Source of the DNA: Lacrimispora saccharolytica
Lineage (GTDB): Bacteria > Bacillota > Clostridia > Lachnospirales > Lachnospiraceae
DNA length: 46,732 nt
Reading direction: 5' to 3'
NCBI GenBank assembly: GCA_016899975.1
Contig: JACJJN010000026.1
Span: forward strand, 1-46,732
Positions 17,934-26,556 of the stretch are shown piece by piece (position 1 is the stretch's first letter; each line of letters starts with the position of its first letter). Made by a program: the position numbers and the translations under genes. The notes beneath the pieces are model-generated. The model worked only from the letters and a program-made list of their open reading frames with translations, did not search any database and had not been told where the DNA came from.

Positions 17934-17994
17934 TTCTTCCTCCCTAGAATGTGTTTGAACATTCATTCCTGCCTCTGCATCTTTTCCTTGCCGT

Positions 17995-25019: not shown

Positions 25020-25171
25020 ACAGCGGCTTGGTTGCCGGTCCGGTGCTGCGGTGGATGATGGACAACATCTTCATCCGTTCCGACCCGGCAGGTAATATCA
25101 AGGCGGACAAGGAAAAATCCACAGGGAAGATTGACGGTACTGTTGCCACCATCATGGCACTTGACCTAGTA
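25020..25171 (+). pseudogene. Phage terminase large subunit fragment, left part
   Basis: Immediately after the permease stop the frame reads SGLVAGPVLRWMMDNIFIRS and then DPAGNIKADKEKSTGKIDG and TVATIMALDLV. This matches the conserved C-terminal end of phage terminase large subunits. The rest of the gene is missing on the left. On the right the frame is broken after ALDLV by a palindromic insertion and resumes at 25327. Confidence 0.8.
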
Positions 25172-25332
25172 TAAGCCGCGATAAATAACCTTATGTTTCG
25201 CTGGTCTGCTTTTCCGATCGCACAGTTGTAAAAGCCTCAGCGTAGCCCGCTACGCCTGCGTTTTTACAACTGCACGCTCGAAAAAGCATCCTCACCGAAA
25301 CAGTAAGGTATTTATCGTGGCTTATACTAGTA
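25166..25332. mobile_element. MITE-like palindromic insertion with 6-7 bp target duplication
   Basis: The interval 25166-25330 is one imperfect palindrome centred near 25248. Each arm is about 80 bases; for instance CTAGTATAAGCC opposes GGCTTATACTAG, and CAGTTGTAAAA opposes TTTTACAACTG. A few bulges separate the matching blocks. It carries no gene. CTAGTA (or CTAGTAT) occurs directly at both ends, 25166 and 25327. Removing 25166-25326 restores a single terminase frame reading ALDLVFRCGND, so this is an insertion of about 155 bp with a 6-7 bp target-site duplication. No transposase is in the window for it. Confidence 0.8.
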
Positions 25333-25395
25333 TTTCGCTGTGGCAATGATACAAGTGCTTCGGTTTATGACAGCCGGGACCCTTTGTTTATATAA
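25327..25395 (+). pseudogene. Phage terminase large subunit fragment, right part
   Basis: The frame reads FRCGNDTSASVYDSRDPLFI and then a stop at 25393-25395. This is the normal extreme C-terminus of the same terminase family as 25020-25171, shifted out of frame by the palindromic insertion. Confidence 0.75.
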
Positions 25396-25509: not shown

Positions 25510-26556
25510 ATGAGAACATTTAATTATTCTGAGATAAAAAATCAAAAGTGGGATTCTGATATTCTCGGTCTGATTGCAGCAATCTATAAAGAAGCAGGCA
25601 AACAGGAACTGTATCTGAAACAGCGCCCGCAGGAACTGGAAAAACTCGTTGAAATTGCCAAGATACAGAGTACTGAGGCCTCTAATGCCATAGAAGGCAT
25701 TGTGACCACGAATACACGAATCAAGCAGCTTGTTGAGGAAAAAACAACGCCCAGGAACCGCGATGAACAGGAAATCGCAGGTTATCGTGATGCGCTGAAT
25801 ATCATCCATGAGAGTTTTGATGCTATTCCAATCACGCAGAACTATATCCTGCAGCTTCATAAAATTCTCTACAGTCATATGAATAACCCTATGGCGGGCA
25901 GAACCAAGAGTGTGCAGAACTATATCAGCGCCACCTACCCGGACGGCCATGTAGAAACCCGCTTTACGCCTCTTGCACCCTACGAAACACCGGAGGCACT
26001 GGACAGAATCTGCGAGGAATATAATCGTGTCATTGGCAATATGGAAGTTGAACCGCTGATTGTTATTCCGATTTTCATTCACGATTTCCTGTGCATCCAC
26101 CCGTTTAATGACGGCAACGGCAGAATGAGCCGCCTGTTGACCACGCTTCTGCTCTATAGAAACGGATTCTATGTGGGAAAATACATCTCCCTTGAGGCGA
26201 AAATCGCAAAGAACAAAGATTTGTATTACGATGCTCTCGGTCAAGCGCAGATCGGATGGCACGAAGGAACGGATGACCCTATTCCGTTTATCAAATATCT
26301 GCTGGGCACTATCCTTGCTGCATACCATGACTTCGAAGACCGCTTTGCTCTGGTAGAAACAAAACTGCCGGCACTGGAAACGGTACGCCGAGCTACAATG
26401 AATAAAATCGGGCGTTTTACGAAGCAGGATATCCGTGAACTTTGTCCTTCTCTGAGCGTCAGTTCCGTAGAGGGGGCGCTACGTAAACTGGTAGCATCCG
26501 GTGAACTGAAACGAGAAGGCAAGGGAAAGAATATCTGCTATTACAGATTGAAATGA
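25510..26556 (+). CDS. Fic family protein (probable AMP-transferase) with C-terminal winged helix
   Basis: A 348-residue Fic protein. The active-site loop is HPFNDGNGRMSRLL (about 197-210), a full HxFx(D/E)GNGRxxR motif, with FTPLAPYETP as the flap. The N-terminal inhibitory helix is present as SNAIEG ((S/T)xxxE(G/N), about 59-64), making it self-inhibited (class II). The last about 60 residues (TMNKIGRFTKQDIRELCPSLSVSSVEGALRKLVASGELKREGKGKNICYY) form a winged-helix-like DNA-binding domain. GGAGG lies seven bases before the ATG. Family knowledge: Fic enzymes transfer AMP to hydroxyl side chains of target proteins. Target unknown; no partner antitoxin gene is adjacent. Confidence 0.93.
   Translation: MRTFNYSEIKNQKWDSDILGLIAAIYKEAGKQELYLKQRPQELEKLVEIAKIQSTEASNAIEGIVTTNTRIKQLVEEKTTPRNRDEQEIAGYRDALNIIHESFDAIPITQNYILQLHKILYSHMNNPMAGRTKSVQNYISATYPDGHVETRFTPLAPYETPEALDRICEEYNRVIGNMEVEPLIVIPIFIHDFLCIHPFNDGNGRMSRLLTTLLLYRNGFYVGKYISLEAKIAKNKDLYYDALGQAQIGWHEGTDDPIPFIKYLLGTILAAYHDFEDRFALVETKLPALETVRRATMNKIGRFTKQDIRELCPSLSVSSVEGALRKLVASGELKREGKGKNICYYRLK

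Follow-up and report, generated by a model that had tools for sequence, protein, structure and literature searches.

The hairpin and the interrupted terminase gene

The window analysed here is the whole 46,732-nt stretch of contig JACJJN010000026.1 from Lacrimispora saccharolytica. A near-palindrome of 165 nt, which reads CTAG-TATAAGCC...GGCTTATA-CTAG, was located at window positions 25166-25330, and no gene was seen inside it. Its outer arms (25166-25203 and 25293-25330) are 84% complementary and its inner arms (25207-25246 and 25249-25288) are 78% complementary. When the stretch 25150-25345 was folded as RNA, the fold scored -94 kcal/mol, compared to a mean of -45.4 (sd 3.8) for shuffled sequences (z -12.8), and none of the 200 shuffles folded as well. 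The original prediction of a near-full-length palindrome without a gene was thus borne out. The element proper (G...C, 159 bp; A-type in the grouping given below) most likely occupies 25169-25327, and the covariance model R1 scored 186.9 bits at 25166-25330. We take as the + strand the one with CAGCGTAGCCCGCTACGCCT at the apex; it is the + strand of the window, and the conserved apical core, CCTCAGCGTAGCCCGCTACGCCTGCG with the loop CCCG, lies on it at 25235-25260. The left CTAG target copy is at 25166-25169, where TA (25167-25168) is the dinucleotide that was probably duplicated, and the right copy is at 25327-25330, with its TA at 25328-25329.

The hairpin splits the final codons of a gene for the large subunit of a phage terminase, which is on the + strand; its 5' part lies at 25022-25165 (the frame was followed from 25022) and the 3' part, with TAA at its end, at 25331-25395. 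When the flanks were joined at CTAG, they read SGLVAGP...MALDLVFRCGND...LFI*, a C-terminus of 70 aa, and the joined product matched terminase large subunit families in the PHROG comparison. The 70-aa query matched 209 phage records, with a query coverage of 80% or more in 158; the best of the phage matches listed ran unbroken for 64 aa over 192 nt at 85.9%. Moreover, the genome contains another terminase copy (C180:8868-9063, 78%), which is uninterrupted and aligns across the insertion site without a gap. Removal of the insert and one target copy therefore restores the frame, as had been claimed, and the C180 copy provides the empty site; intact terminases do not already contain the element. 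A target duplication (CTAG or TA) and an empty site, both general features of MITEs, are accordingly present at this locus. Next to the relic, the 348-aa ORF at 25510-26556 contains HPFNDGNGR, which we take to be a Fic-type motif.

Target site, copies and subfamilies

In the copies with clear boundaries, CTAG was found on each side and the bases beyond it were unrelated; in copies such as L002 and L033, CTAG was the sole sequence common to both sides. The original prediction had described a direct duplication CTAGTA(T) of 6-7 bp. The direct flanking repeat was confirmed, but its length was not, since other copies share CTAG alone and the TAT is the element's own end. Among 64 rows, which were selected by a score itself favouring CTAG and in which one locus (L115) was counted on both strands, 37 carried CTAG at both boundaries, 23 at one and 4 at neither. 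The inner G and C were invariant in all 64 selected rows, and the outer C, T and A varied. Four IS5-family relatives (L298-L301) could all be read as YTA/G...C/TAR, this being one of several possible registers. Because of the invariant inner bases, the variable outer bases and this reading of the IS5-type relatives, the duplication is most likely the TA within the CTAG target, which would give the 159-bp element at 25169-25327. The hairpin element thus has the CTAG/YTAR target of IS5_3/IS427-like elements, and CTAG direct repeats are described for an IS5-group element in the literature (PMC9241763). Insertion into hairpin loops was also considered and rejected: swapping the flanks of 77 copies made little difference to how palindromic they were (mean 1.23 for the real and 1.10 for the swapped flanks).

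When the core CAGCGTAGCCCGCTACGCC was searched in the own genome of the window with up to 3 mismatches, 10 forward and 9 reverse matches were obtained, corresponding to 18 places, one of which matched on both strands. According to their ends, two places are A-type (the window type), seven are B-type (CTAGTACAGCG...) and nine are C-type (CTAGAGCGTGTTTG..., some truncated). The C-type ends, likewise with up to 3 mismatches, gave 48 forward and 41 reverse matches in this genome and 0 for a reversed-pattern control; a relic of such an end lies in the window at 17944-17971, where CTAG is followed by AATGTGTTTGAACATTCATTCCTG. By BLAST, matches were found in 9 of the 61 genomes of the relatives set, own genome included, and R1 detected the element in 30 of 150 Lachnospiraceae genomes. 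The exact 26-mer of the core was present in 82 stretches of named records, which covered Blautia, Fusicatenibacter, Coprococcus catus, Hespellia and Murimonas, as well as records titled Lachnospiraceae, Eubacterium, Eubacteriales and, once, Bacterium. The element is therefore not single-copy. It is short, carries no gene, has inverted-repeat ends and is multi-copy, as MITEs generally are. Together with its dispersal in relatives, the short flanking duplication and the empty-site relative, these observations support the original view of a mobile, non-autonomous, MITE-like element, here part of a family in gut Lachnospiraceae.

No A-type match was obtained in plasmids. In phages, D-type gave no match, and two partial matches to the element were found, both at the extreme ends of faecal 'Bacteriophage sp.' records (MT837746.1 and MT838414.1), where they probably reflect assembly breaks at a repeat. 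In viral contigs, the A and B ends occurred in 5 and 2 stretches, respectively, none of which had the element by eye, and neither the A/B core nor the D/Streptomyces core was matched (0 each).

The subfamilies were compared with one example per type (A, B, C and D). Of the 27 apex columns, the own-genome and D types agreed with each other in 21-25, and comparisons with the C-type of the genome G132 gave 10, 18, 18 and 21. In the outer 50 columns, only 10-25 were identical, except within the C-type (47). Between C-type and A-type, 23 of the 27 apex columns and 27 of 81 middle columns agreed, and R1 also detected C-type copies (L117, E 1.3e-12). The homology of C-type to A-type, which is judged mainly from the apex, is probable but not proven.

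The core of the D-type, a diverged subfamily (L325), matched at 82% over 62 nt (E 2e-6) in two plasmid loci of Streptomyces that are almost identical to each other, and the Streptomyces locus is a long palindrome too. When this palindrome was used as the query, 24 plasmid records were matched, all of them from Streptomyces. In 11 Streptomyces loci, inverted ends G...C were sought, and candidates scored higher when TA stood outside. The resulting lengths were 158, 158, 160, 160 and 160 for five loci, 172 for one and 184-185 for the other five. TA stood on at least one side in 10 of the 11, on both sides in 6 and as the full CTA/.../TAG in 4. GCGTTGTCGTC and CTCCGCCTTGC are common to the Streptomyces hairpins and two D-type sequences caught by pattern. 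R1 did not detect the Streptomyces hairpins; therefore, they are linked to the window type through the D-type only.

Several unusual arrangements were seen among the copies. Two elements (L159 and L151) are located within near-perfect palindromes of about 400 nt in one MAG (JAQUXP), in one copy of 211 nt (L134) two core matches are separated by 46 bp, and one copy (L118) has ends from two different subfamilies, which leaves the ends unpaired. The own genome also holds a second dispersed palindrome, GTAACNGTTCAGCYRGCTGAACNGTTAC (e.g. L048-L069), which was matched 68 times in either direction at up to 3 mismatches and 0 times in the reversed-pattern control. Several of its copies adjoin a common stretch, GGCATCCGCCCAT..., and the hairpins L004 and L006 are located in or beside it.

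Length, arm pairing and genomic placement

The 101 full-length R1 matches listed were chosen as spanning the model, so that shorter forms fall outside the list; 93 of them were 164-166 nt long including both CTAGs. The shorter forms were of 113 nt (C136:143713-143825 in the own genome; G116), 114 nt (G034) and about 84 nt. In the 56 sequences of alignment A1, standard pairs made up 94.9% of the cells when scored on the structure derived from A1 itself, compared to 79.0% with shuffled partners and 33-49% with slid partners, and 26 of 46 pairs had changed on both sides. Alignment A2 comprised 21 sequences, 20 of which were absent from A1 and R1 but had been found with the R1 model. Standard pairs in A2 reached 93.7%, compared to 74.6% (shuffled) and 28-45% (slid), and 31 of 42 pairs were doubly changed. 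Some unpaired positions were conserved like the paired ones, in particular CTKGYCT opposite CATYCT. G.T and A.C mismatches were similar in number (54 versus 39 of 2568 cells, with 13 of the 54 G.T in one column), which we take to speak for a constraint on the arms as DNA rather than RNA. Rfam gave no match at the gathering score, the best sub-threshold match having an E value of 0.32.

With ORFs of at least 100 aa from a rough caller, 11 of 88 copies were placed within an ORF and over 60 nt away from its 3' end, though ORFs made up 85% of the flanks; without the 60-nt rule, the count was 22 of 52, compared to 78% of the flanks. In a set of 99 copies, frames open for 80 codons or more that take their stop codon from the boundary tetramer were counted; there were 15 on the left of the + strand (13 TAG, 2 TAA) and 2 on the right (two-sided binomial about 0.002). 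Both right-side cases are copies located inside ORFs in the placement count. Of 97 copies, 67 had the + strand as the G-rich one (p 2e-4), a bias that was weak for the main A group (16 of 27) and the B group (19 of 30) and stronger for the others. In the near-complete genome G132, sampled GC skew put the + strand on the leading strand at 6 of 6 full-length R1 places, one of which is near the skew switch. Copies within one genome are not fully independent in these counts. Moreover, coding bases also lay mostly on the + strand, likewise in 67 of 97 copies, and the skew therefore cannot separate replication from transcription.

Candidate mobilising transposases and the nature of the element

An IS5-family transposon (DUF4096 and DDE domains, NF033580), which is flanked by CTAG and has the ends of the C-type hairpin, was found in G132, where there are five IS5-family copies. 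The IS at L287 is 885 bp long with both CTAGs present, and its first 20 nt, CTAGAGCGTGTTTGAAAAAT, are identical to those of a 166-bp C-type hairpin at L286; there the hairpin abuts an IS copy, with one CTAG in common. A Streptomyces IS5_3 (L392) agreed in 19 of 20 left-end bases with the hairpin L383, and its right end had no clean match to that hairpin. An IS sharing the element's ends, for which a search had been proposed along with the original prediction, was thus present for the sister C-type subfamily, but none was found for the A-type of the window. Among the PF13340 hits (24 genomes) and the PF01609 hits (10 genomes), no IS had A-type ends; no similar IS was found in this analysis for the A, B or D ends. 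Ends shared with an IS5 transposon, a feature of IS5-family MITEs, were seen in the C-type and one Streptomyces relative only. PF13340 (DUF4096) was present in G132 and absent from the other 23 of 24 element-bearing genomes, own genome included, and the own genome's three PF01609 hits had no CTAG-flanked ends resembling those of the element. Two more IS-like elements (L249 and L257), flanked by CTAG or TAG, have other ends (GGAAACACTGATTAA; GGAAACCTCTGAAAAA).

Other mobilisers were not supported. For an IS630-type enzyme, DDE_3 was absent in 13 of the 15 element-positive genomes among 24 searched, the exceptions being G151 and G002, the latter weakly positive for the element. For a Y1/RAYT enzyme, Y1_Tnp was absent in 6 of the 15 positives (G001, G003, G008, G171, G175 and G176, with a completeness of only 75% for G001 and 68% for G175), and 6 of the 9 genomes that lacked R1 matches had it, so that it is not associated with the element; by eye, the flanks of the own genome's single Y1 gene were unrelated. 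No transposase was recognised by eye as a recurring gene beside the copies in the 25 largest clusters, nor between a pair of C-type ends 1 kb apart in contig C169.

We consider it probable that the element is a MITE of about 159 bp, which inserts at CTAG with duplication of TA and is mobilised in trans by transposases of the IS5 type. In this reading, a DDE enzyme of that type, provided from elsewhere, would recognise both ends and move the element, the window's subfamily included. The subfamilies would have acquired different ends suiting different transposases, and the folded central hairpin would have stayed constrained. Copies would persist mainly outside genes, and the window copy may have been tolerated since the prophage gene that it entered was dead. 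The dispersal, the CTAG target, the empty-site relative, the near-constant length, the co-varying arms and the IS5-family (NF033580) ends on the C-type and one Streptomyces relative were all observed. Nevertheless, a DDE enzyme reading the ends alone leaves the conserved unpaired loops, the near-constant length and the strand bias unexplained.

These features would be accounted for if a folded single strand were the substrate, whether of an IS200/IS605- or REPIN-like enzyme or of another one. This is the main rival, and we regard it as rather unlikely. The arm pairing in A1, the doubly changed pairs in A2, the conserved bulges and the orientation relative to replication (the G-rich strand overall, the leading strand in G132) are in line with it, and compensatory changes are known in REPINs (PMC3116915). 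However, Y1_Tnp is unassociated with the element, the element is one long hairpin rather than two end hairpins, the skew bias is confounded by an equal coding bias, and the C-type and one Streptomyces end match DDE transposons.

An element used by the host at the transcript level appears improbable. The + strand hairpin would be a 3'-UTR structure, and selection on transcripts would have set place and orientation; the scarcity of copies inside ORFs, the genes whose boundary stop codon leads into the + strand (15 versus 2) and the conserved unpaired CTKGYCT/CATYCT loop fit this idea. A conserved RNA is, however, expected to show a different balance than the similar G.T and A.C counts found here, Rfam gave no gathering-score match, presence is patchy (30 of 150 genomes) and no U-tract terminator was noticed by eye. 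Palindromes in general are prone to template switching between their arms, and the likeness of the arms could come solely from such quasi-palindrome correction, with mutational, unselected co-variation free of RNA-like wobble. We hold this to be very unlikely, because correction would erase the internal mismatches that diverged families have in common (the CTTGYCT loop in A1 and A2); the near-constant length also argues against it. It is also conceivable, and we propose it tentatively, that the hairpins form an ancient cross-phylum superfamily of about 159 bp in Lachnospiraceae and Streptomyces, which has kept a structured central core that is strand-specific, exchanged its ends for different IS5-type transposases, and uses the core actively for mobility. 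The core may help as a folded or cruciform substrate, or may link replication or transcription with insertion.

The small mobile repeats of bacteria belong to their least studied mobile DNA, and no paper on this hairpin family was found in full-text searches of the open PMC literature. For this family the target (CTAG) can be named, and the transposase class can be named for some members. Shape, length and direction of the hairpin are kept while the sequence changes, a conservation that a plain MITE would not need, and the core common with Streptomyces makes the hairpin's purpose a directly testable question. Several of the ERIC, RUP, Correia and Rickettsia palindromic elements target TA by means of IS630-type enzymes. 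The present element differs from the RUP- and Correia-like IS630/Tc1 MITEs in the absence of DDE_3 from most carriers, a comparison made at the level of the enzyme. It resembles ERIC, RUP, Correia and Rickettsia palindromic elements in being palindromic, mobile and of a size close to their 100-170 bp, mostly without a gene (PMC10969869). Like the REPINs of RAYT systems (PMC3116915), it is an extragenic palindromic doublet with compensatory changes and proposed mobilisation in trans; unlike them, it has a CTAG duplication and a single long hairpin of near-constant length, and 6 of 15 carriers have no Y1 gene. With the IS5 family (NF033580 transpos_IS5_3; IS427-like) and its MITEs it shares the CTAG/YTAR target and the likely TA duplication, and with the IS5 family also the ends of its sister C-type, identical over 20 nt, and the Streptomyces left end. 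Unlike an IS5-family IS, the window element has no gene, its ends match no IS found, and it has a long conserved hairpin core. The hairpin element is therefore ordinary in kind, as a MITE, and unusual in its constraint.
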